Below the pieces are notes generated by a model. The model did no database searches. It was not told the DNA's origin and was given only the letters and a program-made list of their open reading frames with translations. Below, piece after piece: positions 14,137 through 54,524 of a stretch of 64,000 nucleotides of DNA (position 1 is the first letter of the stretch; every line of letters starts with the position of its first letter). The position numbers and the translations under genes are program-made. The stretch comes from Panopea generosa (Eukaryota > Mollusca > Bivalvia > Adapedonta > Hiatellidae): the NCBI GenBank assembly GCA_029582155.1, contig CM055894.1, forward strand, positions 30,174,707 through 30,238,706. Direction: 5' to 3'.

Positions 14137-14266
14137 CTTCTGCAAAATATAATGATTTCTTACAATAAAAAACAATGATGGCGTTGATGCAGGATGACGA
14201 CAACCGCTGCAATGACAATACCAACAATTGAACCTGTTGATAAGCCGCCACCACCACCACCACCAC
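14137..14266 (-). CDS. Hinge plus transmembrane exon of Ig-type receptor (frameshifted)
   Basis: Acceptor 'ttttattgcag' ends at 14267 and donor 'GAAG|GTAAGTTC' starts at 14136. With the split Ser codon it reads S then seven Gly, L-S-T-G-S, and a hydrophobic run I-V-G-I-V-I-A-A-V-V-V-I, which is a membrane anchor after a Gly-rich hinge. In this frame a TAA follows 10 codons later, after L-H-Q-R-H-H-C-F-L-L. One frame over, the sequence continues as I-N-A-I-I-V-F-Y-C-K-K-S-L-Y-F-A-E and reaches the donor in phase 1. The exon is 130 nt, one more than a multiple of three, although a phase 1-1 exon must be divisible by three. The extra base most likely lies in 'ATCCTGC'. It may be an assembly error, an allele or a true inactivation. 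Confidence 0.65.
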
Positions 14267-14369
14267 CTGCAATAAAAAATTAATAATATATTTAATATGG
14301 GCAGTCAAAGTATATTAGTGATTATAATTCCATAACAAACTTTCTTCTAGATCACATCCCTATGTTTTT

Positions 14370-14671
14370 GGCAATCGTGATCAGTCAGCACTCTGGACTT
14401 TTTCTGCTTCACAGTCTGACTATCAATCCAGGGGTCGTGAATTCGAATCCCCGGCAACAGTCTCCGTAATGACTGATATACGACATTGTGTCTCATTATC
14501 ATTCGTCTCTCACCGCAGATTCAAGTGGGAAAGTTATCAGTTACTTGCTGAGATGGGGTGTGCTATAGTTCTGGTTAATCCTAGGAAACAGTGGTAAGGT
14601 TAACTGATCGTCTGTTAGCCCTCAATAGCATAAAAATGACGCTAATTATTTAATCAATCAATCAATCAATT
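14370..14671 (+). mobile_element. tRNA-derived SINE, family 1, copy 1
   Basis: The body from 'gtctgactatcaatccaggg' to the (caat)n tail at 14652-14671 matches, inverted, the copy at 52303-52588. It has a good B box (gaattcgaatcc) and a decayed A box. It lies in the intron just upstream of the transmembrane exon. Confidence 0.75.
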
Positions 14672-14727
14672 CTGCTTCAAAAAATAAGGAAAACAACACC
14701 ACCAATCTGTGTATGTTTGCACTGTGG

Positions 14728-14940
14728 CAACCCTTAGTGTAACAAAAACCTTTAGTTACACTAAGGGTAGAAATCACAATCATTAGTGTAGCAAAATCAA
14801 TTTTTATTACACTAAGGGTCACAACAGCAACGCATAAATTAGTGTAGCAAAAATTGGTTTTGTTAAAATATGCGTATGTTTTGTACATGTATTGACAATT
14901 GATTATAAAAAGGGTTCACTTAGTGTAACAATCTTTTTCA
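14728..14940. repeat. Cluster of inverted repeats with motif TTAGTGTAAC
   Basis: A perfect 14 bp inverted repeat, ACCCTTAGTGTAAC (14730-14743) and GTTACACTAAGGGT (14755-14768), is followed by a weaker pair (attagtgta at 14782, tacactaagggt at 14808) and single arms near 14840 and 14920. No element body is visible; the function is unknown. Confidence 0.6.
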
Positions 14941-15343
14941 GCTAGAGATTCATTTGTCCCTGCTATGAAATGGGGGCATTTTGTTTTACCCATGTTCATC
15001 GGCCCATCTGGTCTGTTGCAAAGTGCTTCCATGTGCTTCCAAATCGCATTTACACAAACTTTTATGTTAATGATATCAAAATAAAGAAGATAAAATATAT
15101 TGGTGTATTTTTGTGTAATATTACATTTTGTGTTATTTCAGGAGCACTGATACCATAAATAGAATAATGCTATTAGGGGCGTAGTTTGGCTGTGTAAGCA
15201 CAGTTGTAGGGCGTCCGGGTCATGCTCTCCCGAAAAAAAATTCAGCTAGGTTGTCATGAGTGCATTTACATGTTTTTTAGGGTCCTGGTTATCCTGATTA
15301 TGAACTTTAAATTCACTGTTTTATAACCAAATAAATTCAAACA

Positions 15344-16540
15344 AGAGGTCCATTTAAGAGGGCCTGAGGACACTCTACCAACTCATAGTGGCCGTAGCAC
15401 TTTTTGAAATACCACAATATTTACCCTCTTTGGGGGGGGGGGGGGGGTCGTCTTAACAACTTATGGATAAATACCCCCATAACACCCATACTGAACAAAA
15501 ACTTAATTGCTATGAAAAGGAAATACTCTAAATTCCCATGCCATTCACCAGTAAAAAAAGTATAGTCCCCTGTACAGAACCCTTATACAACCAAGCCCCT
15601 TAATTTGTCAGAACTTCAATCACCCATTCCTAGCAATTTGTTATGAGCAGAAATGATTCAAATTTCAAAAAGAAGTTTGTTTTGTACACATGGATGCAAA
15701 ATGAAAAAAATCAGTTTTCCTATGAAAAGGAAATACTTTAAATTCCCATACCATTCATCTGTAAAAAAAAATATAGTACCCTGTACAGAACCCTTATACA
15801 ACCCAGCCCCTTAATTTGTCAGAACTTCAATCACCCACTCTTAGCGATTTGTTATGAGCAGAAATGATTCAAATTTTAAAAAGAAATTTGTTTTGTACAC
15901 ATGGATGCAAAATGAAAAAAATCAGTTTTCGTATAATATTCCTATGTTAAAGTCACATAACAGGGCCCGAATATATCCCAGCCTTGTGATATGCTGAATC
16001 TTCAATCCTGGCTGATGTAAGAATAATTTATTTCAAATATGAACTAGTTTGACAGAAAGGTTATTGAGAGGAAATTTGTGAAAATTCCCAATTTTAACCT
16101 TATTGCCCATCCACCCCCTGGCCTCTTATGGAAATTCAATCCTCTTTATTGAACAAAATCAAATTTATTGTTACTAGGCAATGCTTTAGATCTTAATTTG
16201 AACAACATATTTACCCAAATGGACAAAAAAATGAGAATTTTCCATTTTCCCTTAGTATTCCTTTGTAAGACTCAAAAACCCCTTACAGGGCCTCTATACA
16301 TCAAAAATGTCCCTTGATGTGTACAAACTAAGATTTCTTAATCATAGCGAAAATTAATATCAAATATGAACAAATTTGACTGACCGGTTGTTGAAAATAA
16401 GTTTAGTTTTAATCATTTTGTGACCCCACCTGGCCCCTTTTAGAAAGTCAATCCTTCGTATCAAACAAAATCATATTTGTTATGACTAGAAGTTGCTTCA
16501 AAACTCAAACCGAAAAAAAAATGTCATAAATGAATGATAA
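15344..16540 (+). repeat. Degenerate repeat family B with a ~210 bp tandem duplication
   Basis: Starts with 'gagggcctgaggacactcta' and a poly-G run (15432-15448), shared with 21310, 36180 and 38825. Two ~210 bp units (about 15508 and 15719) repeat 'gctatgaaaaggaaatactc' through 'ggatgcaaaatgaaaaaaat'. More decayed units with 'attcctatgt' and 'ggcccc' continue to 16500. No coding content. Confidence 0.6.
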
Positions 16541-17812: not shown

Positions 17813-19001
17813 TGAAAATAAAAACCCAATCTTAGGAAAAGGCACTACTTCTTCATCATCAGCTTGACATGTGAACAAAGCCTTGTGAAGTTACAGGTTT
17901 GGAGTTAAAAAATTTGTTCTGCAAATGACAAATTTTGATATTTCAACTAATCTTTTCCAAGGTAACATAAAATTACTGAAAATGAAAACTCCCATACCGC
18001 AAATGGCACTAGTAGACCACTAGGTTAACATATAAACAAAGTTTTGTGCAGTTACATTTAACAATTTTGGAGTTGTGGGAGGGGTTGAAAAAAGGAAGAT
18101 TATTTATTTTAATACAGTCTTCAAATAATACTTTCCAATTGCTAGTAGATAGTACATCTAATGCAAAAAAAACAGACTTTGCTGCAGTAAGTCCAAACAA
18201 TATTGAATACGCAACAAAGAGGAGGATAATACAGTGATATTTTTTGTCTAAAGCCTTACCAGATATATGGAACTGGGAGCCAGAGGCTGCTTATATGCAT
18301 GCACCTGCATTAACGTGTAGGAGGATAGTACCTAAGTCTTAAGCATTGTCAGATATGGGAAAAGGGAGCTGGAAAAGCACCTGCTATAACATAATGTAGG
18401 AGGAAAATACTGTTGTGTTTTTTTTTTCTTAAGCATTGCCAGATAATTATAGAACAAGGGGAGGCAGAAGCTGTTGATGCCTGCACCTGCTAATTATAAC
18501 ATACTGTAAAATCGTTAGTACAGGCATAATACAAGTCATGTCTAATAAACATAATAAAATCTTTAAAATATTTTTGAAAGTGAATGGAAAACTTCATTTT
18601 CAAATAAATTCCTCTTTTCAGAAAATTGTACTAGATTTTAGTTTTATATAGACTTGAAAAGATGTACCAAAATCACAAAGTTCTCTTTTGATTGAGATTT
18701 CTATTATTTTGTTAATGCGTGTAAAAACTAAAATTTCTCTACAGCAGTAACTGATTTCAATGGAAATAATTGATATAGTACATACATACATCATGTGTTC
18801 AGGGGTGTACACTATACACGGGTGCCAAAAAGCGCATACACTTTTTCATGGGGACCCCTGTGGGGATGAAACAAAGCCCATGGTATTCACAGTAGTCAGC
18901 TAGTAAGCCTGCAAAACTAGACTTAGTCGACTCCATCATTAAAAAGACATGTCAATAGTTTTTACTATGTGATTCAGGTACTATCATGTAGTTATACATA
19001 C

Positions 19002-19085
19002 TAGTTGTATCAGAAGTGGATGAAGATGAAATGTTAGTTGGTACAGATGTTGTCTGTTGTGAAGCTGTAGTTGAAATTGCTGGTG
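19002..19085 (-). CDS. Ser/Thr-rich stalk exon of Ig-type receptor
   Basis: Acceptor 'tttctgatatag' ends at 19086; donor 'A|GTATGTATAAC' follows 19002. The 84 nt exon is phase 1-1. It encodes P-A-I-S-T-T-A-S-Q-Q-T-T-S-V-P-T-N-I-S-S, then S-S-T-S-D-T-T, a Ser/Thr-rich segment of the kind that is O-glycosylated next to membranes. It joins in phase to the Gly hinge of the transmembrane exon. A paralogous shorter exon sits at 27779-27808 with matching intron sequence on both sides. Confidence 0.65.
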
Positions 19086-21012
19086 CTATATCAGAAATAA
19101 TGAAATTAATAAAATATTGTACTGAATGAAAATAACAAGAAAATTATAGAGACTTTCTTGTATCAGGAAAAGCAAAACAACTAACACACATAAAAATATA
19201 ATATTATCCAATGAAATCAGTCAATCTTTGATATATTGTAATCAAATTCAAATTTAAAAACAATTAACACAAAAGTGTTCAAAGGAACTGTTGGCAATTT
19301 TTACTTTATTCTACCAGCTGCATTACTAAATTAAATCTATGTTTTTCTTTTAAAGAATGAATGTCAGGATTTTTCAAAATTTCAAAATTGGTTAAAGGCA
19401 TTTTTGTCCAAATATATCATGTCTATGTATGCACAATGGCCTCATATTGCCATAAGGACATCTATTCAAACATGCCAACATAATAATATACTGTAATGGG
19501 GTTTCAGCTGCCCAAACCAAAATGGTTGGCATTTGCTCCAAACAGTTAATTCATTCCTTTCTGAATGATTTACTATTGTCCAGAATAATTTACATTTATT
19601 TTGATAATGAATTATTTACAATTGCGCAAATTAGAATGATTACATTTGTGGATAAGTGTTGGCCACTCATACCTGAGCCACGGCTCTCCCAAATAGCCTC
19701 TTAAAAACAACTGTCAGTTCTGATTCTACCCAGGAAATGGACTCATATGAGTGATTCATATTTTTTGTGATGGGGCAAAAATAAATTTAAAATAAAAGCA
19801 TCAACTGATAACCTCAGAGTGAATCTGAGTAAAACAACAATTACTGTCCTTTAGCAAGTAACTGGAAAACTTCATCACATAAAGAATTTGAACCAAGCTG
19901 GATTCGAACCCATGACCTCAGCAGTGTAATTCAATTAAATTCCAAGCAAAATTATCTACATCTTCTCCAGTCAGAATGGCTTACAGTTGTCTCACTTGAT
20001 CCGCCCAGTCAGAAGGAGGCAATAACTTGATGTCCAGTCCAACTTTTTAATTAAGATTCTGTCTGCGTCACATTTAATATCAAGCAATGGTAAACCATCC
20101 TATGGTTTTAAAACAATAAAAAATACTTTTACTATTTAATCAATATAAATTATCTTTGTATTATAATTTGTACATTAAGCTACATTTAAGTTCTAAGTAC
20201 ATATGTATAGATTATGTTTTGAATACTTTAAAAATATCCATCTCAACAAGAGGCCTAAGTGAGCCTTATGTGACTCACTGAGTAATATAGAACTCCGCAG
20301 TGGGGTCAAATATTTCCCAAGGGTTATGATTAATATAATGAAATTGCCAAAATTGCTTTTTCACTATTTCGGTGGTTTGATAATACACCTTTATTTTTGA
20401 CAATTCTGCCAATTCATTGCCATATGTGTATCACACTTCGCATCTTTACACTGTTAAAGCTTTATCAAGTTATAGCTGTACCCAATGTCATCCAATTTTG
20501 ACAGAACTCATGAAAAGGTTCCAATGTTCTCATAATTATGTACAAAGAAATATCACAATTTTATGCATTTTCAACAAAATTAATGCATCATTACCACACT
20601 TCATGCAAAATTTCAATTTTGATTTCTTAGACCAAACATTTACGAAAATAGTCTAGGTCATCCAAAAACAACGGCACAACCCATTACACAACTCTAGACC
20701 ACATATGGCTACTCCAACAGTTTTTGCATAGAGAGCTTAATGCAGATATTAACATTCCACTGTTGTCTAATCCACCACAGAGAAAATTACAAATGCCAAA
20801 AAACAACAACACCAAAAGCCACATAACATTATACAGCAACCTTTTTTTTTATATAAAAATACAAATATATAAAATAAACAAAAGTCATGATTATGCAATA
20901 TATCAGCATTGCTCAATTTCATAGCCAAGACAATAATAGCAAATATATAATACAATACTTAATCTTGATTACGATAGGATTGGTATACATTATACAAAAA
21001 ACAACATTCAGT

Positions 21013-21293
21013 ATACCCCCAAATAAACGTACCTGTAAAATGGGAGTATTACTGCCAGTGAAATTGGTTTATATTTTGTATGAAATATGTGTGTAAAATG
21101 CAATAACACTGCCAGTGATGAGACACATAGTCAACTTTTAAATGTTTCAAACATATTTCAATTTTGTAATGAACATTTTATTTATTTGTATAAAAGATCA
21201 ATTTCCAGAGTGTAGTCATTTTATATTCTATATAAATAGGTAAGGGGTGCAGTGGGGTTATAAGGAAGGAGCATTTATTCAGGAGTATATGGT
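21013..21293. mobile_element. Small inverted-repeat element in block 1
   Basis: The left end 'agtatacccccaaataaacg' and the right end 'gagcatttattcaggagtat' are imperfect inverted repeats. The same pair brackets 35000-36156 in block 3, so the element predates the block duplication. The consensus resembles the 'attcccttataaacgcccc' termini at 30995 and 62399, suggesting a related family. No ORF. Confidence 0.5.
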
Positions 21294-21357
21294 ATATTAC
21301 ATAACATTTCAAGAGGCAGATAAGGGCCTGAGGACACTTCTGATTATAGTGGCAATA

Positions 21358-23120: not shown

Positions 23121-23125
23121 CAATA

Positions 23126-24110: not shown

Positions 24111-24214
24111 CCATATACCATTAATGGTCAACTATCGTTTGACTATGGTCATAACATGGTTTAAACATGGATTATGATGAGAAATTGTACAAAATGAAGG
24201 TTAACTATCATGTT

Positions 24215-25265
24215 AATCTCAATGAGATCCCAGTTACCTCCCACTGGGGTCTCAGTGTGGTAATCCCCTGTAACATTTTCTACTGGGATCTCAGTGTGGT
24301 AATCTCCAGTAAAACTTTCTACTGGGATCTCAGTGAGGTAATTCCCTGTAATATTTTCTACTGGGATCTCAGTGAGGTAATCCGCTGTAACATTTTCTAC
24401 TTGGATTTCAGTGTGGTAATCCCCTGTAACTCATTCTACTGGGATCTCAATTTGGTAATCCCCTGTAACATTTTTTACTGGGATCTCAGTGTAGTAATCC
24501 CCTGTAACATTTTTTACTGAAATCTCAGTGTGGTAATCCCCTGTAACATTTTCTACTGGGATCTCAGTGTGGTTATCCCCTGTTACACTTTCTACTGGTA
24601 TCTCAGTGTGGTAATCCACTGTAACACTTTCTACTGGGATCTCAGTGAGGTAATCCCCTGTAACATTTTCTACTGGGATCTCAGTGAGGTTATCCGCTTT
24701 TCTATTGGGATCTCAGTGTGGTAATCCCCTGTAACACTTTCAACTGGGATCTCAGTGAGGTAATCCCCTGTAACATTTTCTACTGGGATCTCAGTGTGGT
24801 AATCCCCTGTAACATTTTCTACTGGAATTTCAGTGAAGTAATCCCCTGTAACATTTTCTACTGGAATCTCAGTGTGGTAATCCCCTGTAACATTTTCTAC
24901 TGGGATCTCAGTTTGGTAATCCCCTGTAACATTTTCTACTTGGGTGTCAGTGAGGTAATTCCCTGTAACATTTTCTACTGGAATCTCAGTGTGTTAATCC
25001 CCTTTTACATTTTCTACTGGGATCTCAGTGAGGTAATCCCTGTAACACTTTCTACTGGTATGACAGTGTGGTAGTCCACTGTAACATTTTCTACAGGTAT
25101 CTCAAGAGTGGTAATCCCCTGTAACATGTTCTACTAAGATCTCAGTGAGGTTATCCCCTGTAACATTTTCTACTTGGATCTCAGTGTGGTAATCAATCCC
25201 TTGTAACATTTTCTACTAGGATCTCAGTGTGGTAATCCCCTGTAATATTTTCTACTGGGATCTCC
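24215..25265. repeat. 39 bp minisatellite, about 27 copies
   Basis: The unit reads 'ggtaatcccctgtaacattt' then 'tctactgggatctcagtgt'. Because 39 is 13 codons, open frames run on both strands (plus: V-I-P-C-N-I-F-Y-W-D-L-S-V; minus: T-E-I-P-V-E-N-V-T-G-D-Y-H). The frames are broken by indels and stops in several units and lack splice borders, so I read it as a noncoding array in an intron of the receptor gene. Confidence 0.9.
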
Positions 25266-25739: not shown

Positions 25740-26470
25740 ATTGCCAGATATAGGGACATTCCAAACTGTTTCTTATAACTGCTATTGCTATATAGGAGGG
25801 TATAAGTACTGTGATAATCCTTGTCAGGTACAGGGAACCGAGAGGCAGAAACTATTTATGCCCGCACCTGCTTTATAACATAATTACATATAGCATGATG
25901 GCGCAGTGATAATTTTTGGCTTAAGCATTGTCAGGTACAGGGAACCAGGAGGAAGACGCTGTTTATGCTTGCAACTGCTATATAACATATATCAGGATAG
26001 TGCTGTGACTGTTTTTGCGAACCGGGCGGCAGAAGCTGTTGATACCTGCACTTGCTATATAACATATAGTAAGATAGTGCAGCAATGGTTTTTGTCTTAA
26101 GCATTGTCAGGTACAGGGAACTGGGAGGCAGAAGCTGTTTATGCCTGCACCTGCTATATAACAGATAGCAGGATAGTGCAGTGATGGTTTTTTCTTTAGC
26201 AATGTCAGGTACAGGGAACCGGGAGGCAGAAGCTGTTTATGCCTGCACCTGCTATATAACATATAGCAAGATAGTGCAGTGATGGTTTTTGTCTTAAGCA
26301 TCGTCAGGTACAGGGAACTGGGAAGCAGAAGCTGTTGATGCCTGCACCTGCTATATAATATATAGCAGGATAGCACAGTGATGTTTTTTGCTTTAAGCAT
26401 TGTCAGGTATAATTTAGGGAACTTGGAGGCAGAAGCTGTTTATGCTGGCACCTGCTATACAGCATACTGT
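25740..26470. repeat. 98 bp tandem repeat, about seven copies
   Basis: The unit is 'aagcattgtcaggtacaggg', 'aggcagaagctgtttatgcc', 'tgcacctgctatataaca' and 'agtgcagtgatggttttt'. Copies begin near 25830, 25930, 26033, 26131, 26229, 26328 and 26425. Block 1 (18240-18500) keeps about three diverged copies, so the array grew after duplication. Confidence 0.85.
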
Positions 26471-26595
26471 AAAATCCTTAGTAGAGGCATAATTCAAGTC
26501 ATGATTTATAACTTTTGTTCACTTTAAGAAAAAAAATATTTTTATTAAAACTGGTGAGAAAAACAAATTTAAATTAATTATCTTTAATTATCAAC

Positions 26596-26700
26596 ATGGT
26601 TCATATAGACCTTAGTGACAAAAATTCAAGGACTTTTCCAGGACTATTTTTCAATTTTCACGGACTCATATGTGCAGACAAACCTTGTAATATATTTTTT
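26596..26700. repeat. Solo end related to the hAT-like element
   Basis: 'catggttcatatagacctta' followed by 'ttcaaggacttttccaggac' matches the left end of the element at 21358 ('catggttcatacagaactgg', 'ttcaaggacttttcaaagac'). No partner end was found, so it is a fragment. Confidence 0.5.
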
Positions 26701-26964
26701 TGAAAATGACTTGAAATCAAAGGAACTACATGTATTTATCACTTCACTTTCAAATAAATCCCTCTTTACAAATAAGTATACATGTATTTGCCACTGCACT
26801 AGATTTTACAGTTTTATATAAACTTGAAAAGATGTACCAAAATCACAAGTTCAATATATTTCTTGTTATTAAATATTACTTTAATTACATATAAAAAGGA
26901 AAAGCACACAATTAATTGAGAATTGAGAATAGCTTAATTCCTAAGCTTGCTGGTCTTGTACAGT

Positions 26965-27575
26965 GAATTACTAAGGTACCATTAAGATGTGTTCCTGCAA
27001 AGATACTATGGGTTATTGAAGACCATAAGGAATAACAAAATAACAATGGATAAAAGGTACCACAATTGTACACTAAGGTACCATTAAGATGTGTACCTGC
27101 AAAGATACTATGGGTAATTGAAGGCCATAAGGAATAACAAAATAACAATGGATAAATGGTACCACAATTGTACACTAAGGTACCATTAAGATGTGTTCCT
27201 GCAAAGATACTATGGGTAATTGAAGGCCATAAGGAATAACAAAATAACAATTGATAAATGGTACGGCAATTGTACACTAAGGTACCATTAAGATGTGTAC
27301 CTGCAAAGATACTATGGGTTATTGAAGACCATAAGGAATAACAAAATAACAATGGATAAAAGGTACCACAATTGTACACTAAGGTACCATTAAGATGTGT
27401 TCCTGCAAAGATACTATGGGTAATTGAAGACCATAAGGAATAACAAAATAACAATGGATAAATGGTACGGCAATTGTACACTAAGGTACCATTAAGATGT
27501 GTTCCTGCAAAGATACTATGGGTAATTGAAGACCATAAGGAATAATAAAATAACAATGGATAAATGGTACCACAA
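26965..27575 (-). repeat. 102 bp tandem repeat, six copies, open on minus strand
   Basis: The unit is 'ctaaggtaccattaagatgt', 'cctgcaaagatactatgggt', 'gaaggccataaggaataaca' and 'aaataacaatggataaatgg'. It equals 34 codons, leaving a 214-codon minus-strand frame (26912-27556) of near-identical peptides with a N-G-T sequon. It lies on the coding strand, between the two stalk exons, but I see no acceptor or donor that would include it. A chance frame in a young satellite is the simplest view. Confidence 0.85.
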
Positions 27576-27778
27576 TTTTTTAAAGGCTTTATGTAAGGGA
27601 ATTACCACAAAATCTCTCATGGCATTTAAAGAAAAAACTACATTAAGCGATGAACAAAGCACGGCGTATTCACATAGCCAACTAGCAAGTCTGTGAATGA
27701 AGTAAACTCCATCAATAAAACAAGTAGCTTAATATTTTTAACTTTGTGATTAAGGTACTTTCATGTAGTTATACATAC

Positions 27779-27808
27779 TTGGTGAATTAGAAGTAGTTGT
27801 TGCTGATA
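27779..27808 (-). CDS. Short Ser/Thr-rich stalk exon of Ig-type receptor
   Basis: Acceptor 'tttctgatacag' ends at 27809; donor 'A|GTATGTATAAC' follows 27779. The 30 nt exon is phase 1-1 and encodes S-A-T-T-T-S-N-S-P. The acceptor and donor contexts are nearly identical to those of the exon at 19002-19085, and the surrounding introns are duplicated too, so the two are paralogs. Joined after the Cys-rich exon at 42372 it keeps the frame. Confidence 0.6.
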
Positions 27809-28019
27809 CTGTATCAGAAATATTGATTTTAACAAAAATAATTTACTATATGAAAATAATATGAAATAATAGTAATTAAAATTACTATGTTTGAACAAAT
27901 GATATAGACTGTCTTATATCAGGAAAAGCAGAACAATTAAAAAAACATATAAACATACCATCCACAAAATAGGTCATCTTTTATATATTGAAATCAAATT
28001 CAAGTTAATAAATAACATA

Positions 28020-28285
28020 AAATTATTTGAAGGAACTGTTGGCAATTTTTATTTCATTATTTCATTCTATTAACTATATATATAAATTGTTTAAAGGAAC
28101 TGTTGGCAATTTTTATTTCATTATTTCATTCTATTAACTATATTTATATAAATTGTTTAAAGGAACTGTTGGCAATTTTTATTTCATTATTTCATTCTAT
28201 TAACTTATATAAATTGTTTAAAGGAACTGTTGGCAATTTTTATTTCATTATTTCATTCTATTAACTATATATTTATATATTCAAT
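28020..28285. repeat. About 62 bp tandem repeat, four copies
   Basis: The unit is 'aaaggaactgttggcaattt', 'ttatttcattatttcattct', 'attaactatat' and 'ataaattgttt'. Block 1 has a single copy at 19283, so the expansion is specific to block 2. Confidence 0.85.
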
Positions 28286-30099
28286 TAAACTTGTACATTT
28301 TCTTTTAAAGGAAGTATAACAGGATTTTTCAAATTTTAAAATTGACTGAAATAGTTTTACATTATATACTCACTGACTTCCTATTGCCATTAAGACAGAT
28401 TCTATTCAAACCTGCCAAAATATTATTTTGAAAAGGGATTTACTAACTTGGCCTATGTATCAAGGTTAGACTAAAAGATTTCCCGCTTAAAAATTTGTTT
28501 CATCTTAGAAAGAATCTGAGTGACTATGTAAAAGTTGTCAAGCAGTAATTAATTAAGTGCTGTCTATTTATAGAATGAGGATTTCGTTTCATGTTTACCA
28601 CTTCAATTGAAATATTGATTTTTTCATGTTTTGGTGGATTTGATTTATTTAAAAAGATGTCACAGGAATTCTCAAAACAAGGTTTTGCGACAGACGGATG
28701 TATAGACGGAAAACACAAAAATAATATGTCTCCCAGTGACATGTAGACATAATTATCAAAGGTGACAAAATAACATTGTTAAATAAAGAAAGTTGGTGTA
28801 ATAGATATAAAATAAATGAAATGAAATAGATTTGATCATATTCCATTTGTCAGTGTTTTTTTTTTTTTATTAAATTGCTGACAATTCCTTTAACGCAAAA
28901 CAAATGTCTGATACTCTTGCAATAAGCATCTTGATGACTTGCCATTTTGTTTCATGGAAATAAACAGAAAACTACCAATCAATTGCAGCAGGACATATAT
29001 TGAGAACTAGTTATAATAAATTTTAAAATTAGGACATTATTAAATGTTTGACATGGATAATGAACAATTACTATATTATTGGTTACTTTAACATGGTACA
29101 GTAAAATTGTTTCTATGTATGTAATAAGTATGTACAAGTTTTCTATTCCTTTGCATAAATATTGCACAAGCAAGACAGGTGAATTATCCATAGCAACATA
29201 AACTGTTGGTTAACATTAAACAGGGTAACTGCACAGACTGTAAGGTCAACTGCACTGGTCAGGTACTTATCAGCATATAGTCAAGAGATATGACAACACA
29301 ACACTGGAAGTGATATGAAAACACAACATATTTAGCAGAGTGTATATATTTATATCCTACAGTAATTATTGTTGATGTTATTGGTTGTTTACTTGAGATG
29401 TCACCGAATAATTTGGGCTGTGTTGCATTTCCATATCTCTTCCTGTGTTGCTTTGTCATATTTCCTGTATTGTCTCTTGAGTGAAGATTATTGGCGAGGT
29501 TTTATCTTCTCTATACGAAGTGGTTGGTTAGAATGCATGGCCATTTAGACTGCATCCAGATTTCATCAAGCTGCAGAAACACAGTTAAAGTTAACCATAT
29601 AAAAAAAAATTAATCTTTTAAAAGAAGCTTATTCTGAATGGTTTAGAATTGCCACTGTAAAACAAGATCATTTTGTACCTTCTACATTCAGCATGGTTAA
29701 CAACTGGTTAACTGTCCTTTGGCAAGTAACTGGAAAACTTTTGAACCAAGCTTTGTTTGAACCCATGACCTCGGCAGTGTAATTCAATTAAATTCCAAGC
29801 AAACTTAACTCCAGTTAGAATGACTTAGTTGTTTCATGTCAGAATGAGGCACTCACTCAATGTCCAGTACAACTTTTTAATTAAGATAATGTTCTGTCTG
29901 CATCAGATTTAATTCCAAGCAATGGTAAACCATCAAATAATAAAAAATACTTTTCCTATTTATATCAATATATCTTTTATTAAATTTTGTACATTAATCT
30001 ACATTTAAGTTCTAAGTATATATGTATAGATTATGTTTTGAATAATGTAAGAATAGCAGTATTTGAATCAATCTCAAATATGTCCGAAGGGTTATGATT

Positions 30100-30375
30100 A
30101 GAATAAAGTTGGCAGGGGACCATAACAGGATGTTACACACAAAATATGACTGCTAAATCACCTTTATCATTGAATTGCATGTGTTTAGTGTTGCTTTGTA
30201 CAATTATTTAGCCAAATCAGGACAGCGTCAGCCCAAGACAGTGGTGTAAGCTATACTGAAATATTACCAAAGATAATTTTATGAAAATCAGAAATTATAA
30301 CACAAAATTGTTTCTTGTCATTTAAAATTTGTCACCTATTGTTAATAATTACCAGAATGTCCATTGTAGGTAGGA

Positions 30376-30406
<31 letters not shown>

Positions 30407-30994
30407 CAGTCTTGCCAAGTTGCATAAAAAAACAAAAATGTGGAGAAAAAGTGACAGGAAAAGAAAAATGCTATCCATATGCCATACCAATACATGATAA
30501 CAAATATCTTATGGTAATGAATGACAAAAAAATAAAATGGGAAATATTCACAAAATTCATGGTAGTATAATATGAATTGAACAAGAGACGTGGTAATTCC
30601 CCGAAAACCATGTTTTTCAAACATTTTAGCTTTTCTGTAACTATAAATCTATTTCATGCCAGAATTTTATGTACATTGAAGCAGAAAATAAAAAAGCATA
30701 CAATTCAAATTTTGTTTTTTTTATTTGTACAACATTGATGCAATAGTTTTGTTAAAAAAAGCATGAAATAAAGTTTTTCTCTTGTTTCTGTGCTATTCAC
30801 ATTATGAAAGATGTAATGTGATTATACCTGGAAACAAACATGCGTATTCATAAAATAATACATCAATATTTTCACATTTTGCACTGAGGCTTAAGTGGTG
30901 GTATTGTTTCCAGTACCCAAAGATAGGAGGTAAGTCACACATGCTCAACTGATAGCAACAATTTCTTAAACACGATGTTTGATTCTGCAAATAT
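30100..30994. other. Noncoding stretch with a (GT)n microsatellite
   Basis: A run of about 13 GT units lies at 30380-30406. Otherwise AT-rich sequence with no supported feature. Confidence 0.6.
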
Positions 30995-31645
30995 ACCGTA
31001 TATTCCCTTATTAACGCCCCCGGGGGCGTTACATTTTACAAGGTGGGGGCGTTTATAAAAGACAAAAAAGCAAATTTAACAACAGTTAAAAATACAACAA
31101 AGCCCTGGAATAAAACCTTAAATCCGGTTTAAATCCCCGAAAAAGTGGTTCAGAATTATTTGAGAGTGAATGAAATAATCGACATAGGATGAAAAAAAGC
31201 TGAAAATCTGTATGAAATTACTAGTCTGCGTACTGGAATATCCGAATTTATGGTCAGTGTACTGTTCACTTTAAATCACTTGGACGCTTGCTCTTATCAA
31301 TGTGGAACAATGAGCTTTCAGCGTACACAGACTAACAGCATTTTCCGATGTTTTGTAATGTTTTAATCGGCAGACAGTATTTTTACTAGTTTTAAACAGC
31401 AAATATGGGCAGGTGTTTATTCAACCAAAAAATGGTTAAGTGGTCCCCAAGATATAAACAATGGGTTAAAGAGTTCAAAGGTAATAAACACTCCACTTAT
31501 TGTTGTCTGTGTAACAAAATAATCGATCAGGGAAAGATGGGCGAATACGCACTCAACTCGCATATACGTTTTGTGTTTTAATTTTCCAGAAAAATAGGTG
31601 GGGGGCATTTATTAGAGTGGGGGCGTTTATAAGGGAATATACGGT
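30995..31645 (+). mobile_element. Inverted-repeat element carrying a BED-finger fragment
   Basis: The left end ACCGTATATTCCCTTATTAA and the inverted right end ACCGTATATTCCCTTATAAA match at 19 of 20 positions. An 18 bp perfect palindrome AACGCCCCCGGGGGCGTT (about 31012-31029) follows the left end. The only coding content is a truncated zinc finger (31405-31581). I see no clear target-site duplication. A shorter relative lies inverted at 62399-62615. Confidence 0.7.
31405..31581 (+). pseudogene. Truncated BED-finger ORF, 58 codons
   Basis: From ATG at 31405 the frame carries W-S-P-R-Y-K-Q-W-V-K-E-F-K-G, then C-C-L-C and N-S-H-I-R before the stop. The C-x2-C pair and first His fit a BED finger, but the last zinc ligand is missing, as the coding part ends at the element's 3' region. 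A near-identical peptide is encoded at 62428-62600 (minus), and a related one inside the hAT element at 21358. Confidence 0.6.
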
Positions 31646-31889
31646 TTTACAAAACATTATGAGAAATTCAGCTGTGTTGTAAAAATTTTAAACAGACCTG
31701 TACATTTCTCTTATAAATCATTTGTATTTTTTATAATACTTTTTGCCTCATGGCTATAAACTGAGCAAGGTCACCGCAAACCATTTTCAAGATAAAAATG
31801 TGCATGTTAATTGAGTTTCACTTTAAAATATATCAATACATCAATCCAAACTTTTTTAGTATCTTTATCAAAATAACAAAAGAAAAAGA

Positions 31890-32830
31890 TTATGACTTTA
31901 AAGAGATGTACACTTTGTGTAAGTTTGCTTCAGTTCTGATAAAGAATAATCTAGTTATTGAGCGGAAAGGGTAAATTTTAGCATTTTTGACTAATTAAAG
32001 GGCCATAACTCTAAAGATAATGATCCATATTGGCTGGTTATCGAACTTGGCCTAGATATTATAGAGATGCACACTTTGTGTAAGTTTGCTACAGTTCTAA
32101 TAAAGAATACTCTAGTTATTGAGAGGAAACCGGCAATTTTAGCATTTTTGACTAATTAAAGGGCCATAACTCTGAAGGTATAAGGGTCCGTATTGGCTGG
32201 TTATCAAACTTGAACTAGATTTTATAGAGGTTCACACTTGGTGTAAAATTGGTTCAGTTCCGATGAAAAATACTCTAGTTATTGAACGGAAACGGGCAAT
32301 TTTAGCATTTTTGACTAATTAAAGGGCCATAACTCTGAAGATATGGTCCGTATTGGCTGGTTATCGAACCTGGCCTAGATTTTATAGAAGTATACACTTT
32401 GTGTAAGTTTGGTTCAGTTCCGATGAAAAATACTCTAGTTAATGAATGGAAACGGGCAATTTTAGCATTTTTGACTAATTAAAGGGCCATAATTCTGAAG
32501 ATAATGGTCAGTTATGGCTGGTTATCAAACCTGGCCTAGATTTTATAGAGGTACACACTTTGTGTAAGTTTGGTTCAGTTCTGATAAAGAATACTCTAGT
32601 AATTGAACGGAAACGGGCAATTTTAGCATTTTTGACTAATTAAAGGGCCATAATTCTGAAGATAATGGTCTGTATTGGCTGGTTATCGGACTTGGCCTAG
32701 ATATTATAGAGGTACACACTTTGTGTTAGTTTGGATCAGTTCTGATAAAAAATACTCTAGTTATTGAACGGAACCAAAAAAATTGAGGCCACCCATCCGG
32801 CCGCCCGCCCACCGACTTCGCCTATCCAAA
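31890..32830 (+). repeat. Core-repeat array, ~161 bp unit, five to six copies
   Basis: The unit is 'ctctagttattgaacggaaa', 'gggcaattttagcatttttg', 'actaattaaagggccataac' and 'ggctggttatcgaacttggc'. The 'agggccataa' motif recurs near 31999, 32160, 32321, 32483 and 32643. It ends in a GC-rich tract 'ccggccgcccgcccaccgac'. Same class as the other arrays. Confidence 0.8.
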
Positions 32831-32839
32831 AAGTGCGAT

Positions 32840-33640
32840 ATAACAACATCACTCATATGCATCCAACCGCATTACCAAAAAGCATGAACTACAAAATGGA
32901 ATCAATATTGCGACAAATGCTATTTTTTAAGTGGGTGGGATATGAATATTACATAAATACTGGATTCTAACACAAACAATTTTTTTTAACTAACATGAAT
33001 CATGAAATCTGGATGCAGTGAATGTTCCGGACATGCTTTTGTTGTGTTATATCAGCATCACTGTCTCTCTGTGACTTTCAAGTGTTTTAAGTCCAAATTT
33101 CTGTTTGTTTGAGTCAGGTGGCTAAAATCAAGTCTCATGGGAATCTACAAAGCATATTTACACAGATAATCTCATTGTGTGTTTCTTCCATTGAAACGAA
33201 TCCTTGATTTCATGACAAATTTTCAACTGTTCAATCTCATTGCCCTATTTGTTTAAATTGTTTTTGCTTCAAATTTGATTTGGTATGAGTGAAAGATTCT
33301 GTATTTCACTCAAAATCATCAGTTTTCCACAAAAATACAGTTATCTTGCCATTGATAGGTTTCAAATTACAATATTTCCCTTAGAAAATGATATACTTTG
33401 ATAAAGAAAGTAAATCTGAATCAAAAGAATACAGTGTCTTCTGATTTTCTATGTGAATCTGATATCAGAATCTCGGACGTCTAACACAACAATTAATTTT
33501 GCCAAAGAGAAATGCACTTCTTAGAACACTGAAACCATTACGAATGGTTCTAAAAGTGCCTCATTTTGAAATCCATTTCCACATTATCCTCTGTTGGTCC
33601 AAATGTGCCGAAAAGAACAAGGGGGGGTGACCACGTTAAA
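32840..33640. other. Noncoding stretch, nothing recognised
   Basis: AT-rich with short G runs ('aagggggggtga' near 33620); no repeat or gene that I can support. Confidence 0.5.
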
Positions 33641-35181
33641 AAAATTTAAATTGACTAAAAACATTTTTTTTCCCAATATACCATACCTCATAATATTATA
33701 CTCAGACCCCATATTGCCAAAAATATATATATTTAAACATGACAAAATAATTATATATTGAAAAGGGCTTTCATAACTTAGGTTATATGCCTAGGTTAGA
33801 CTAAAATTGTTTTGTCAAGCACTATTTAAGTGCCGTCTATTTTTAGAATGAGGGTTTTGTTTCAAGTTTACCACTCTTATTTACATATCGATTTTGTCAC
33901 GTTTTGGTGGATTTGACATACTAAACTATTCGCTTTATATTTATTAATGAATGATAATGAGATGCTTTTTATCGGTATTGATAATTATTGACATTTATAG
34001 CATTTTATCCTGATACACCTTAAACTGTTATAGCTTTATCAATCAGCACACAATTGCATCCAATTTTGGCAGAACTCATGAAAAACTATTACAAAAAGCA
34101 TAACCCTAGGGGGCCTTCATTAGAGCGTTTATGGTAGTCTAGGTCATCCAAAAACAATACCTCATTGTTCTGAGCGGCATAACTCATTACACAACTCTAG
34201 ACCACATTTGTCCACTCCAACAGTTTTTGTATAGAGAGCTAAATGCAAATATTAACATTCAACTGGTCGCTACACCACCTCAGGAAAAATAACAAATGTC
34301 TATTTTTTCTTCAAAATGAAAAGAAAAAAATTATTTATCACATAATTTATGGTGCAGGAGTGTAATAAACCCACGGCATATTTTTGAAATTAACCTATTG
34401 TAATATCACTTCAAATTGATCACTCAGTGTTTTCCGTATAACTCAGCTCTAATTGTAAATAAATTGCCAAACTACTTCTGGACTTGCCCCAAATATACAG
34501 ATGATTGATTTTTAATGATTAAATGACATTATTTTGTGACGTAACGTTTTACGATGACTCATGGAAACTAATATGCCCAATTATTTCTCATTCCTTATAG
34601 AGGTGATCTGTTCAATAAATGGTAAATGTAAACTTTTTCTGAGTGATGTGATAAAACGAATTTTACATTCATGCTCATTTATTATTGAATTTACTAAACT
34701 TGTTGGGGGAAAAGTATATAATTCTTGGCAGAGCCTCGCATAATATATTTTAAACTCATTTAATAAATTCAATTATAAGTAGGCACTCATGTAAGATCCT
34801 CTATATATCGCATAACAAAATATAACATTAAACAGCAGCTTTTCTTATAAAAATACAAATATATAATATAAACAAAATCACTATTATGCAGAAATTCATT
34901 ATTGCTCCATTTGATAGCTACAAAAATTATAACAACTATATAATACAATACTTAATCTTAAGTATCATATGTAAATATTATACAAAAATTACATGACATG
35001 CAGTATATCCCCAAATAAACGCGCCTCTAAAATGAGGGTATTAAAACATAGTTGTGCCAGTGAAATCAGTTTAATTTTGTATTGAAAAATGTGTAAAATG
35101 CAATAAAACTGCCAGTAATGAGACATATAGTCAACTTTAAAATGCTTAAACAGATTTGTTATGAACATGTTGTTTTTGGTA

Positions 35182-36050
35182 CACTGCGGTCCCGATATAA
35201 CGCGATCCAATATATATCGCGAATTCCGTTATTACGCGGTTTTTGCTTGGCTCCCATTTTTTTGGCACGTGGGGAAAGTCATGATATAAAACTTGAAAAT
35301 CATTGCGAATGATCAAATGACAACCAAACAATAGATCGTCGCCATGTTTTGATTTGATAATCGCTCATCTTCTTCTCACCAAATAGCCTTGATTATTACA
35401 AACTATTATAACCATTACCTCATGGTGGTTTAAAGGATAGTTTAAGTGATTGATTCATGCCAGCATTGACTAAATTAACAGTTTGTAATAATCCCGAGAA
35501 CTTCAATAAATGCTGTCATGCATCAAACACGGAAGCCATATGCAAACTTTGTTTTTATCGAGTGATCACGTGATCAAGCAACGTAGCGGTTGACAGGTAT
35601 TAATAAATCGCGGGTGTCTGATTTGATCGTAAACACAAACTTATTTTTATGATTTAATTGTTGTTAATACCTCAGATATACATTTTTAATATTTTAACAC
35701 TTACAGCGTTGAGTTTAAATTGAAGCGCGAGTTTTTATATAGACACCGTTTTTTTCTCCTTCCGGGTTAAATGGAAATGGCTGCCAATTTTAGAATAATC
35801 AAAACACGAAAACGTTTTTCTTTATATTCTTTTTTTGTATTAATTTTTTACATATGTATCTGTAGTAACCAAATATGCGTTGTATCATATTACAATGCAA
35901 ACAATACCATACACTTAGAGTCGGACAGCACAATAGGTGTGAATAACCGACATCGATTTTTTCGAGGTAATTATTGCTATAACGTGGTCCGTTTATAACG
36001 CGGTTTCATTTTGTGGACCCCAAGAACCGCATTATAACGGGACCCAAGTG
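35182..36050. mobile_element. pogo/Tigger-like non-autonomous element, 869 bp
   Basis: The termini CACTGCGGTCCCGATATAAC and, inverted, CACTTGGGTCCCGTTATAAT have the form typical of pogo/Tigger elements. TA flanks both sides (35180-35181 and 36051-36052). Block 1 supplies the empty site: 'atttgtataaaagatcaa' at about 21185-21203 against 'ttttggta...tattaaagaccaa' here. A second terminal-like motif (ttataacgcggttt) lies inside the right end. It encodes no transposase but carries a signal-peptide-like ORF. Confidence 0.8.
35771..35966 (+). CDS. Signal-peptide-like first-exon candidate inside the pogo-like element
   Basis: ATG at 35771 (a second ATG in 'ATGGAAATGGCTGCC') opens M-A-A-N-F-R-I-I-K-T-R-K-R, then a hydrophobic run L-Y-S-F-F-V-L-I-F-Y-I-C-I-C-S, then a polar stretch. 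A donor-like 'TTCGAG|GTAATT' follows 35966 in phase 1, the usual phase after signal-peptide exons. Upstream are a CACGTG palindrome (tgatcacgtgatca) and 'cttccggg', which could be promoter elements. It may be a captured host promoter plus leader exon, or chance. Confidence 0.3.
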
Positions 36051-36330
36051 TATTAAAGACCAACTTCTAGCATGTCAAGTCATTTTATATTCTATATAAA
36101 TAGGTTGGGTCATTTATAAGGAGGGAGCATTTATTTAGGAGTATATAATATATACAGTACATTACCTAACATTTCAAGAGGGCCTGAGGATGCTCTACTG
36201 GTTATTGTGGCCATAGTACTTTTTTTAATTTCGCAATATTAACCCTTTGGGAGGGGTGTGGTAGTCTTAACCCCCTATGAAAAAATACCCACCACACCCT
36301 TCACTGAACAAAAGTTATATACCAGTATTA

Positions 36331-42371: not shown

Positions 42372-42504
42372 TCTTTGCCAATATACAATATGGATTAGTT
42401 GCGCCTGCAATACAGGTGACTGCAGTTCCGCTAAAACAGCATTCAATCTTGTCACTGCCAGATGTGGAGGTGTAAGTACTGCCTGTTTGGAGAACATCAT
42501 TTAC
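42372..42504 (-). CDS. Cys-rich second half of Ig-like domain exon
   Basis: Acceptor 'gttaattttcag' ends at 42505; donor 'AAAGA|GTAAGTTTT' follows 42372. The 133 nt exon is phase 0-1: 44 codons starting V-N-D-V-L-Q-T-G-S-T-Y-T and continuing S-G-S-D-K-I-E-C-C-F-S-G, T-A-V-T-C-I-A-G and N-P-Y-C-I-L-A-K. Four Cys in 20 residues suggest extra disulfides. It joins in phase to the exon at 54433-54524 and to the stalk exon at 27779. Its Ig nature is inferred from the upstream exon and the overall layout, as the canonical Trp and Y-x-C are not clear. Confidence 0.65.
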
Positions 42505-45370: not shown

Positions 45371-45376
45371 TTTATT
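45371..45376 (-). terminator. AATAAA polyadenylation signal candidate
   Basis: AATAAA on the minus strand, about 80 nt downstream of the stop of the exon at 45457-45549. The position is right for a short terminal exon. The region is AT-rich, so chance occurrence is possible. Confidence 0.35.
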
Positions 45377-45456
45377 ATTAGTAGTAAAGGTAGTCCTTAA
45401 TTATTATTGTAAATAATCTGTTTTGTCTGTTTAGTGAACTTATGTATGTTTTTGTC

Positions 45457-47217: not shown

Positions 47218-47398
47218 ATGGCACTCGTTTTTGATAGCGATTCTGGTGATGAATCTGATTTTTCAGGGTTTGGGTCTGACGATTTAGGGTCCGATGTTGA
47301 GGTTCCTTTGGTTCATGAGGAATCGTCAGATGATGATGATGATGATTTGCCTTTGAGAAATGATGAATGGACACACAACTTCACGGCTCCTAGGGTGT
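47218..47398 (+). CDS. piggyBac transposase, acidic N-terminal exon
   Basis: ATG at 47218 opens M-A-L-V-F-D-S-D-S-G-D-E-S-D-F-S-G-F-G-S and an acidic stretch with six consecutive Asp, ending N-D-E-W-T-H-N-F-T-A-P-R-V. An acidic N-terminus followed by a W-containing motif is usual in the family. The frame stops at 47403. To join the next segment (acceptor 'tctttttttag' at 47686) in frame, a phase-1 donor is needed; T|GTTAAA at 47399 fits but is weak. Other readings: unspliced decay, or a stronger GT in the wrong phase. Confidence 0.6.
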
Positions 47399-47686
47399 GT
47401 TAAATTAAAATTAGCCATTCAGTTGCAAGTTTTCTAGTTTTCAGAAATAAATTAAAAATGAAACTGAAATCTTTCAACCGAACTAAATATGATTGTTTTC
47501 AGCTTCATCTGATTTACAGTATAGTAATGAGAAAATATTTTTTTTTTAAATATATAATGAAAGTAATAATGCTTTAAAATATCTTTAGTTTTAAAATTAA
47601 ACACCTACTATGATGAATGAAATAATAATTATAATAAAATGTATAATGAATGAACAAAAAATAATTATAAAAATATCTTTTTTTAG

Positions 47687-49068
47687 ACATTTGTTTTACA
47701 CATTGTGATCTTGTTTATTTTCTGTTTGAGGAGTTTGTTGAACGCCCTGGACCTAACCTTCCTGATGGGTTTGACACCAGGACAGCTACGCCGCTTGACT
47801 ACTTTTGGTTGATGTTTCCTATAAGGTTGATTGGGATCATGGTGCGCTACACTAATGGATATGCAGCTTGGAAACAGACAAGAGATGGTCCTGATACACA
47901 CTGGGAAGATGTAACTGAGCCTGAGATGCGTGCCTTCCTGTCACTCAACATACTCATGGGAGTAAATCAGCTACCACAGATTGAGATGTATTGGTCTAGT
48001 GATCCGTTCGTTGGCAATGCTGGAGTCAAGAACACAATGACATGTAACAGATTTATGAAGTTTCATGTAAGTGATCGGACAGAGGAACACGAACGAGGAC
48101 AGGAGGGATACGATCAACTGTTCAAGGTCCGGGAGATCATGGATATACTTTCTGACACATTTATGAACGGCTACACACTTGGCAGGGAGGCATCTGTGGA
48201 CGAAGCTATGATTAAGTACTCGGGCCGCCTCTCGTTCCGCCAGTATATGCCTGCTAAACCTATAAAGCGTGGTGTGAAAGTATGGATGCTGTGTGATGCC
48301 AACAATGCCTACTTGTCTCGATTCCAGGTGTACTTGGGGAGACAGAACAATGAAACAGAACACGGTCTTGGCCACAACGTTGTTACTAGCCTAACTTCAC
48401 ACTTCCAGCAGTCGAACCGATTGATTTTCTTTGATAACTTTTTTACTGGCCTTCCGCTGCTTCAGAGTTTGATCGCCAACGGGTTGTATGCTTGTGGGAC
48501 GATCAGAATTAACCGCCAGGGTTTCCCAACAGACATGAAAAAGCCACGCGAGGTAGCAGTTTGGAGAGACATGAAGATCCGCCAGTTAGGAGCTACCAAC
48601 TTGACAGCAAGTGTTTGGAAGGACAAGAAGCATGTCCACATGGTTTCTACCCTCAGCAACCCAACAGACATCAAAGAAGCACGTAGACGCATGAACAGGA
48701 ATGTAGTTCCAGTACATCAGCCACACAGTGTTTGTGCCTACAATAAGTTCATGGGAGGAGTGGACCTTCACGACCAGCTCAGGATTAACTATGGTGTGGG
48801 GCGTAATGGTAAGAAGTGGTGGCGGTATCTCTTTTGGTTTATGGTGAACTGTGCCATAGTGAATAGCTATATTATCTACAGGCAGGTCTCCGAGCGGTTG
48901 ACGACGAAGAAGAGATACCGTCACATAGACTTTAGGCTGGAACTACAACGTTCGCTGGTTGGTGGGTTCGCGAAGAGAAAACGTTCAACTGGCTATCAGC
49001 TTGCCAACCATCTAAGTGCTGGTTGCACAAGAGAACATCGGTGTGCACATCAATGTCCGTCTGCCTGA
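47687..49068 (+). CDS. piggyBac transposase, catalytic DDE domain
   Basis: Cuts and pastes the element at TTAA sites. After the acceptor the frame reads I-C-F-T-H-C-D-L-V-Y-F-L-F, then P-G-P-N-L-P-D-G-F and T-P-L-D-Y-F-W-L-M-F, typical of the start of the DDE_Tnp_1_7 domain. The catalytic Asp codons are at 48199 (S-V-D-E-A-M), 48433 (F-F-D-N-F-F-T-G) and 48763 (G-G-V-D-L-H-D-Q); the extra conserved Asp at 48772 is also present. K-W-W-R-Y-L-F-W-F closes the domain. The frame then runs into 14 irrelevant residues and TGA at 49066, because the Cys-rich domain continues one frame over. Confidence 0.88.
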
Positions 49069-49198
49069 GCGTCGAACTACGTGCAAGTTCCACATGCGTG
49101 TGCACAACAAGAGGAAGGAGACAGTATATGGATGCGCTGTGTGCAATGTGCATCTGTGCAAGGAGGGATGCCATGCATTATACCATTCTCAGTCCTAG
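49016..49198 (+). pseudogene. Out-of-frame C-terminal Cys-rich domain of piggyBac transposase
   Basis: The +1 frame reads V-A-Q-E-N-I-G-V-H-I-N-V-R-L-P-E-R-R, then T-T-C-K-F-H and E-T-V-Y-G-C-A-V-C-N-V-H-L-C, K-E-G-C-H-A-L-Y-H. The C-x2-C, C-x3-C and terminal H spacing is that of the zinc-binding domain that recognises the transposon ends. It is separated from the catalytic frame by one extra base (or two lost) near 49010-49030. As it stands the protein lacks this domain. Confidence 0.75.
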
Positions 49199-50024: not shown

Positions 50025-50029
50025 TTAAT

Positions 50030-52187: not shown

Positions 52188-52302
52188 AAACACGTTCGAG
52201 ATAATATAAAACGTCACTACACCAAGTGTAAAACTATACACTTAATGTACATACAGAGTGTAATAAGTGACACCCACTAAGTATACAAAACGTAAAATTG
52301 AG

Positions 52303-52588
52303 ATTGATTGATTGATTGAATATTTAGCGTCATTTTTATGCCATCGAGGGCTAACAGACAATCAGTTAACCTAACCACTGTTTCCTGGGATTAACCAGTA
52401 CTCGAGCACACCCCATCTCTGCAAGTAACTGATAACTTTCCCACTTGAATCAGTGGTGAAAGACGAATGATAATGAGACACAATGTCATATATCAATCAT
52501 CACGGAGACTGTTGCCGGGCGGGGGATTCGAACTCAAGTCCCCTGGATTGATAGTCAGACGTGTAACCGACTGAGCTAAACAGGCCCG
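52303..52588 (-). mobile_element. tRNA-derived SINE, family 1, copy 2
   Basis: On the minus strand it starts with a well-kept tRNA-like head: 'gggcctgtttagctcagtcg' (A box), 'ctgactatcaatccag' (anticodon arm) and 'gagttcgaatcccc' (B box). A ~200 bp body follows, ending in (caat)n. The copy at 14370-14671 is its homolog. The long body and tail rule out a plain tRNA gene. Confidence 0.8.
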
Positions 52589-52599
52589 ATTGGGAAGAA

Positions 52600-54425
52600 G
52601 GTTTTTTAAATTTCACAATTGTGTCCCTTTTTGGGCAGCTGCTGGCTCTTTATCAATATTAAACTTGAAACAAAGTGATCATTTCAACCAAATACAAACA
52701 CATCTTGTCGGTTCTTGAGAAGATTTCTCTATGATAAACTGTAAAGTCCCCAGGTCAAGGCTTGATGATCAAACCTGAGAGAGGATCCCATGCAAAATAT
52801 CAAAGCTTCAGACCTTGCATTTTCAGAGATAATTTTTAAAAACAACAACTGGTAAGTCCCTGGTGCAGGGGCCAAATTTGACTGAAGGGTTAATAAAAAC
52901 TTTAGAGAGCTACATATTAGAATACTTCATACCAAATAAGGTGAAAATCTATCCAGTGGTTCTCGGAGGGACAGAGTGCTCAACTTTTTCAATGCTGTTC
53001 TAAAACAATAGCTTTTTCAGGAAATAAGTACTAAATGAAAGTCGCAATTAATATTCACAATTCATCATAGGGCAATATATTGGTACAAGTTCATGGAATG
53101 GACCTATAGTTGAAATAATCTTGTTCAGCCTGCACAGTATGTCACAGCTGGTTTCATCCACATTCCATGTTGTTTCAATGTTTTACATAATAAATTGGTA
53201 CCAGTTCAAGCAAATGGATCTATAATTGAAATAATCTTGTATTGAACAGCATGCAGCTTACCACAGCTGGATACCCTTTTATGAAAATGAAAAACATTTT
53301 TTCATGAAAACAGAAGTGAAAAATTTAATCTGAGCTCCAGGCCTTAAATTTTGGTAGAAAAATATTTTTAGAAGTTTTCTCTAAAATTTTGACCCCATAG
53401 TGCAGGCCAATTTTGCCCACAGGGTCATGATTTTGAACCAATTTGAGAAAGGTCCACACACTGATCCTATTTGTAAAACATCTAATCTCAAGGCCTTGTA
53501 CTTGTACTATAAAATTTAACCTGCTAAAAATCTAAAAATTGTAACAAAAAAAAAGAACCTAAAAGGGCAATAATTCTAATAAATTGCTAAAGAGTTATGT
53601 TTCTTGTCTCTAGGAATTTCCTAGATGATTCTGAACACGATTGTGAAGTTCATGTCCAATTTATGTCCAAAGATGAAATATGTACCTACTCAAAGCTTTA
53701 ACCTGCTCAAAAACTCTAACCAAATTTTAAGTCCAAAAGGGCCATGATAAATGCTTTCAATATGTTTTAGAATAATGCATTTCAGTAAGGTTCAAGGATT
53801 TCATATTGCACCAAGCTCCAGAAACAGAGTTTAAGGGAATGTTCTTAGAATCTCTCATTGACTAAAGGAGGAATAATTGACCCAAGTAGGAAAAAAGACA
53901 TGTTCTTTAATTTGGTACTTTGTTGAAATAAAATTTTGTTGTATATATCAAGTAAACACAGTTTTTATAAAGTACTGAAAAAACTCATAATTATTTTTAA
54001 TGCCCCATACAGCAGCGACGTCATTGATGGAAGGACCTATAGATGGTGTCTTATGTGGTGCAGTGTGTTTGTTAAAACAGTGTTATAGATTTATATTTGA
54101 ATCGCATTAGTGTTAAATTAATATGCAACATGGCCAATAGAAAAAATAATCTTTTAAAGCAAGTGATGATTGTTTAACAATTATTAATTTAATCGCATTT
54201 ACATTGATTTTTCTTCTTACCATACATCATCGGAATATGGGCACCTGAGGATATGTTCTAAATGAATTAGCTTGTTTGCCAACTTGAAAACATGAAAGAC
54301 AAAACACTCATTTGTGGCTCTCACATTTCATTGAAATTATCAGCTATTGCATGACCCTTTATTTCATATTCTATGTTAAAAATAGTGTTAATATTTGTTC
54401 TTGTTTATTAGAGAAATATATATTT
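52600..54425. other. Decayed repeats in intron
   Basis: Family B-like and core-like fragments ('agggccatga', 'aaagggcaataattctaata', 'ttgtgaagttcatgtccaat') with no clear unit length. An approximate ~130 bp duplication ('tggtacaagttcatggaatg' and 'tggtaccagttcaagcaaat') is at 53090-53270. No gene seen. Confidence 0.45.
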
Positions 54426-54432
54426 TACTTAC

Positions 54433-54524
54433 TCTTATAAGAAGATCTACTGCTGGAGTTCCAAGTGTACCGGTGCATGTATAGGTATTACCTGATACAG
54501 TAAAATTTAAACCTGTTGGTGCAT
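54433..54524 (-). CDS. First half of Ig-like domain exon
   Basis: Acceptor 'aatttattttacag' ends at 54525; donor 'AAGA|GTAAGTAAA' follows 54433. The 92 nt exon is phase 1-0: A-P-T-G-L-N-F-T-V-S-G-N-T-Y-T-C, T-G-T-L-G-T-P-A-V-D-L-L-I-R. The Y-T-C-x-G-x-x-G-x-P pattern followed by L-L-I-R resembles the B to C strands of an Ig domain; N-F-T is a glycosylation sequon. It is the most upstream exon found. The 5' partner must end in phase 1 and probably lies outside the window. Confidence 0.65.

Follow-up and report, generated by a model that had tools for sequence, protein, structure and literature searches.

Do five short segments on the minus strand of a bivalve genome, proposed as exons 1 to 5 of a chain, belong to one split gene, and if so, does that gene encode an immunoglobulin (Ig)-type surface receptor, as a first-pass annotation had suggested? 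The segments lie in a 64,000-nucleotide (nt) stretch of Panopea generosa (assembly GCA_029582155.1, contig CM055894.1, positions 30,174,707 to 30,238,706), hereafter the window. Our results support that suggestion in part: we regard a stalked, single-pass surface protein encoded by a split gene as a better reading of the segments than an Ig receptor. We put at roughly 0.55 the probability that all five are internal exons of the same ordinary bivalve gene, which would encode a single-pass membrane protein and whose frame is broken in this copy, allele or assembly.

Candidate exons, one of them duplicated

As had been claimed, each of the five segments is preceded by AG and followed by GT on the minus strand (Table 1), with GTAAGT donors at three of them and GTATGT at two. 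The claimed phase chain (1-0, 0-1, 1-1, 1-1, 1-1) holds for the first four, which do not conflict and which, joined in transcript order, give an open frame with no stop; it does not hold for the fifth, which at 130 nt cannot be 1-1 and has a TAA in the required frame. The introns of a five-exon model would measure 11,928, 14,563, 8,693 and 4,735 nt, lengths that are not unusual in bivalves, and it is normal for exons of animal genes to be spread across tens of kilobases (kb) and to be missed by scans for open reading frames (ORFs).

Table 1. Positions within the window of the candidate exons, the segmental duplication and the transposon-related features.
Feature	Position	Strand	Details
Candidate exon 1 of the chain	54433..54524	-	92 nt, phase 1 in / 0 out, APTGLNFTVSGNTYTCTGTLGTPAVDLLIR; AG/GT, open frame; rank 4/78 in relaxed scan
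Candidate exon 2, several Cys	42372..42504	-	133 nt, phase 0 in / 1 out, VNDVLQTGSTYTSTSGSDKIECCFSGTAVTCIAGATNPYCILAK; AG/GT, open frame; rank 7/78 in relaxed scan
Candidate Ser/Thr exon, copy B	27779..27808	-	30 nt, phase 1-1; AG/GT; copy of 19002-19085, splice borders kept
Candidate Ser/Thr exon, copy A	19002..19085	-	84 nt, phase 1-1; AG/GT; duplicated with flanks; rare in simulations
Candidate Gly7 hinge and membrane-span exon	14137..14266	-	130 nt; top of 5 minus-strand candidates with first matrix; frame breaks inside span
Segmental duplication, copy A	18213..21357		holds 84-nt stalk exon; self-comparison, ordered blocks ~60-79% identical
Segmental duplication, copy B	26061..36215		longer than copy A; holds 30-nt stalk exon; self-comparison
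piggyBac-type transposase, not part of the gene	47671..49068	+	in first proposed intron; PF13843, E 3.2e-84
Reverse transcriptase fragment (RVT_1)	~58113-58376	-	E 7.6e-08; probably a remnant of the long interspersed nuclear element (LINE) type

The two Ser/Thr-rich segments count in favor of a real gene. When 1-1 candidates of at least 9 amino acids (aa) and at least 55% Ser/Thr were collected, with cut-offs chosen after the exons had been seen, the minus strand had them at two places and the plus strand at no place, while one such exon occurred in only 1 of 100 simulated strands and two in none of the 100. A looser rule (50%, any phase) gave five candidate frames, all at the same two places, whereas 60 simulations averaged 0.25 and never gave more than 2; a still looser list added minus-strand Ser/Thr stretches at 43511-43548 and 47902-47937, neither in phase 1-1. 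As one of the two places is a copy of the other, they should be counted as one event plus one duplication, not as independent observations.

Self-comparison of the window places both segments at matching positions in a segmental duplication, the two copies of which have the same orientation and are accompanied by an additional partial copy at ~33641-33925. The two segments are copies of one candidate exon: acceptor and donor are both kept, the donor side is identical at 26 of 27 bases, and the length difference, 54 nt, is in frame. Kept borders together with an in-frame length difference fit the duplication of a real, skippable exon, and in computed joins the omission of either or both stalk exons leaves the frame intact. 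Matches extending to 23.9 kb (23.1-23.9) and to 38.7 kb were left uncounted, because they involve repeats that also occur near 15-16, 44 and 50 kb. The duplicated blocks at 19740-20260, 20630-20800, 20800-21210 and 21170-21370, with their partners, were considered as hidden exons and rejected; every one of the six frames has at least one stop, so that no long shared exon is seen, though short ones may be present.

The last segment is also partly as proposed. The Gly7 hinge and the membrane span that had been claimed are both read in the phase-1 frame, as seven glycines and a hydrophobic run (GGGGGGGLSTGSIVGIVIAAVVVIL), but this frame continues through HQRHHCFLL to a TAA at 14160-14162, 23 nt ahead of the donor and inside the span exon. 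The run has a mean of 3.5 over its best 13 residues in the right frame, and the frame is broken within it. In a frame other than phase 1, a further stretch of hydrophobic and basic residues, INAIIVFYCKKSLYFAE, could plausibly continue the span. Read from the sequence as given, the protein would stop just past a short span. Given this break within the membrane span, the copy would be either a pseudogene or a truncated allele, unless the assembly is in error.

Under the reading that we favor, the joined exons would encode a small extracellular domain that contains Cys and is interrupted by a phase-0 intron, followed by a Ser/Thr-rich and probably O-glycosylated stalk made from one or two skippable 1-1 exons, and then by a glycine hinge and a membrane span that would place the product at the cell surface. 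The stalk exon would have been duplicated together with its flanks, and its copies differ in length.

Identity of the ectodomain

Nothing in Pfam, in NCBIfam or among the sequences of the PDB supports the Ig-type assignment, and the likeness on which it was based is one seen by eye. Ig domains are usually marked by a Trp and a D-x-G-x-Y-x-C motif; the region of 74-75 aa encoded by the first two exons contains cysteines, and by eye both the Trp and the motif are absent from it. Within HMMER's filters, this Cys-containing peptide matched no Pfam family at E up to 10, although a divergent Ig domain could escape a Pfam search. It had no match in NCBIfam, a library that serves bacterial and archaeal genomes, and none among PDB chains at E up to 10 with phmmer. 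In viral and prokaryotic contig collections, no relative of the 75-aa peptide was confirmed.

A 147-aa join had four Pfam matches, all below cut-off, the best being Podoplanin (PF05808; E 0.0091, 16.7 bits against a cut-off of 30); VSP was also among them (E 0.062, 12.6 bits, cut-off 31.4). Members of the Podoplanin family have a Ser/Thr stalk followed by a membrane span, and the candidate chain resembles them in this layout, but at such a score the likeness is likely one of composition only. Both the Podoplanin and the VSP matches lie over the stalk and span and fit their composition. Two PDB matches of a 52-aa stalk-plus-span piece (E 0.22 and 0.75) were taken as chance. Among proteins, a 137-aa query yielded 167 candidates, none of them at E up to 10, and a 44-aa query yielded no candidate; these searches are limited to proteins whose length is between 0.55 and 1.75 times that of the query, and a full-length relative of at least 300 aa therefore could not appear. 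Rfam had no match in the window at gathering thresholds.

The first-pass annotation had further proposed a diversified, immune-type receptor. The only diversification seen within the window is the second copy of the stalk exon, the upstream exons being single there, and nothing that we found bears on an immune role; both proposals are unsupported here. It might be imagined that the stalk length depends on which of the two symmetric Ser/Thr exons are used, with 0, 10, 28 or 38 residues added, beneath a divergent ectodomain that escapes profiles, and that the latter could be a mollusc-specific recognition domain; we regard this as quite improbable.

One gene, chance or mixed remains

A number of results weigh against a single gene. 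The five-exon chain has no homologue and no domain match within the searches made, and its fifth exon fails the phase chain. No signal-peptide exon could be adopted in the 9.5 kb upstream of exon 1, where a candidate first exon at 55381-55519 (donor scores 0.4 to -0.3) was too weak; nor did the 14 kb downstream of the membrane exon yield a convincing exon for the tail, as the weak candidates that occur there were not adopted; the same holds for a cytoplasmic tail or signalling motif within the window. The gene, if real, therefore either reaches past the window or has exons too weak to see. The splice scans give points on both sides. With a generic splice matrix, five minus-strand candidates passed, compared with 1, 2, 1, 7, 0 and 1 in six Markov-3 simulations; as five falls within this range, the passing number is not clearly above chance, and four of the claimed exons, all except the membrane exon, failed this matrix. 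In a second scan the donor matrix was relaxed and a codon score added, both after the exons had been seen, and thresholds for the scans were likewise adjusted afterwards. Among 78 minus-strand candidates that do not overlap, exons 1 and 2 then came fourth and seventh, ranks that count in favor of one gene; the five others placed ahead of exon 2 include one in a minisatellite (24238-24423) and another antisense to the transposase (48179-48250). The two exons score just below the rounded values of 14.3 and 11.9, respectively, at or above which the window has three and six candidates and 60 Markov-4 simulations have means of 0.32 and 1.47. Since simulated strands have on average 1.47 candidates at the level of exon 2, exon 2 alone is not unusual, and neither of the two exceeds chance by itself.

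These numbers lend some weight to an alternative that we hold to be doubtful, namely that the chain was put together by eye from cryptic borders that resemble splice sites, in DNA that is rich in AT and filled with repeats, and that the duplication copied one such stretch. Chaining is easy with only three phases, yet it fails at the fifth exon. The minus-strand Pfam scan is also in line with chance: with three frames translated and X in place of stops, over 63 of 66 pieces (three low-end pieces of 996-999 bases being omitted), the sole family above cut-off was the reverse transcriptase fragment, and the length-limited protein searches gave no homologue either. Against chance, Ser/Thr-rich 1-1 exons are nearly absent from simulations, and the top border pair under the first matrix flanks a hydrophobic run in the very phase demanded by the stalk exons. 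Moreover, the order from domain to stalk to hinge to span is biologically sensible, which counts in favor of one gene whose exons would be spliced together. The minus-strand Pfam scan also gave weaker matches to DUF4625 (E 0.0011), Erg28 (E 0.0022) and DUF2172 (E 0.0072), which were rejected as exons, being below their cut-offs and overlapping none of the proposed exons; in a rescan of 40 of 42 pieces, those to DUF4625 and DUF2172 fall in minisatellites.

That the segments are mixed remains, real exons of at least two neighboring paralogs or of a decaying gene that were never one transcript, would accord with the segmental duplication between ~18 and 36 kb, the broken membrane exon and the transposon remnants within and beside the proposed gene, but we consider it unlikely, as only the stalk exon is present twice and the second copies of the upstream and membrane exons that a whole-gene duplication predicts are absent from the window (blastn, E 0.01).

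Transposons, known systems and meaning

The transposase in the first proposed intron is a long open frame and possibly a recent insertion. Its best match, a Mercenaria mercenaria protein, is 72% identical over 98%. The search returned 739 proteins at E up to 1e-20; among the best 120 of the 739, the named matches are mostly from bivalves (Ruditapes, Pecten, Dreissena, Saccostrea, Mya, Mytilus, Argopecten), with few non-bivalve names, e.g., Montipora and Denticeps. By these matches a bivalve host is likely, with the reservation that transposons can pass from one species to another. No relative was confirmed in the prokaryotic contig collection. Among the listed relatives is a piggyBac protein filed under a Candidatus Thiodiazotropha taylori metagenome-assembled genome, which may reflect animal-host contamination of the bacterial bin. 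An acidic open stretch (47238-47394) directly upstream of the transposase may be its N-terminal part.

Other repeats surround the candidate exons. An inverted pair of ~255 bases (14414-14667 and 52302-52560), 90% identical and probably a short transposon, has one copy within the last proposed intron and the other within the first. Minisatellites occupy 24243-25264 (39-nt unit, 26.3 copies) and 26970-27577 (102-nt unit, 6 copies) and are open in places, as in a 229-aa ORF at 26912-27601, where Pfam matches are below cut-off. A near-palindrome of 100 bases (54588-54687) lies ~60 bases from the upstream border of the first proposed exon.

With regard to known systems, CD44-type and CEACAM-type genes have skippable symmetric ectodomain exons. 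The candidate chain shares with them 1-1 stalk exons that can be removed without a frame shift, a likeness known here from layout; it differs in that only two copies of the stalk exon are present in the clam chain, where skipping is a prediction. In bivalves, the oyster immunoglobulin superfamily (IgSF) receptor CgIgIT2 is described, in the part of the review PMC11999971 drawn on here, as having five Ig domains, a membrane span and a tyrosine signalling motif. The chain is similar to receptors of this type, as there described, in being from a bivalve and in its proposed single-pass membrane layout, but it has at most one putative domain, and no tail was found. As for piggyBac, the part of PMC8905726 drawn on here has it in one table row and makes no mention of immunoglobulin, IgSF, Ig-like or intron.

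Because the phase claim fails at the membrane exon, it would take transcripts to count this locus as an intact immune receptor. If the chain is true, it would raise no new question by itself; it would add one gene to the membrane-protein genes of bivalves and illustrate how a stalk exon can be duplicated.

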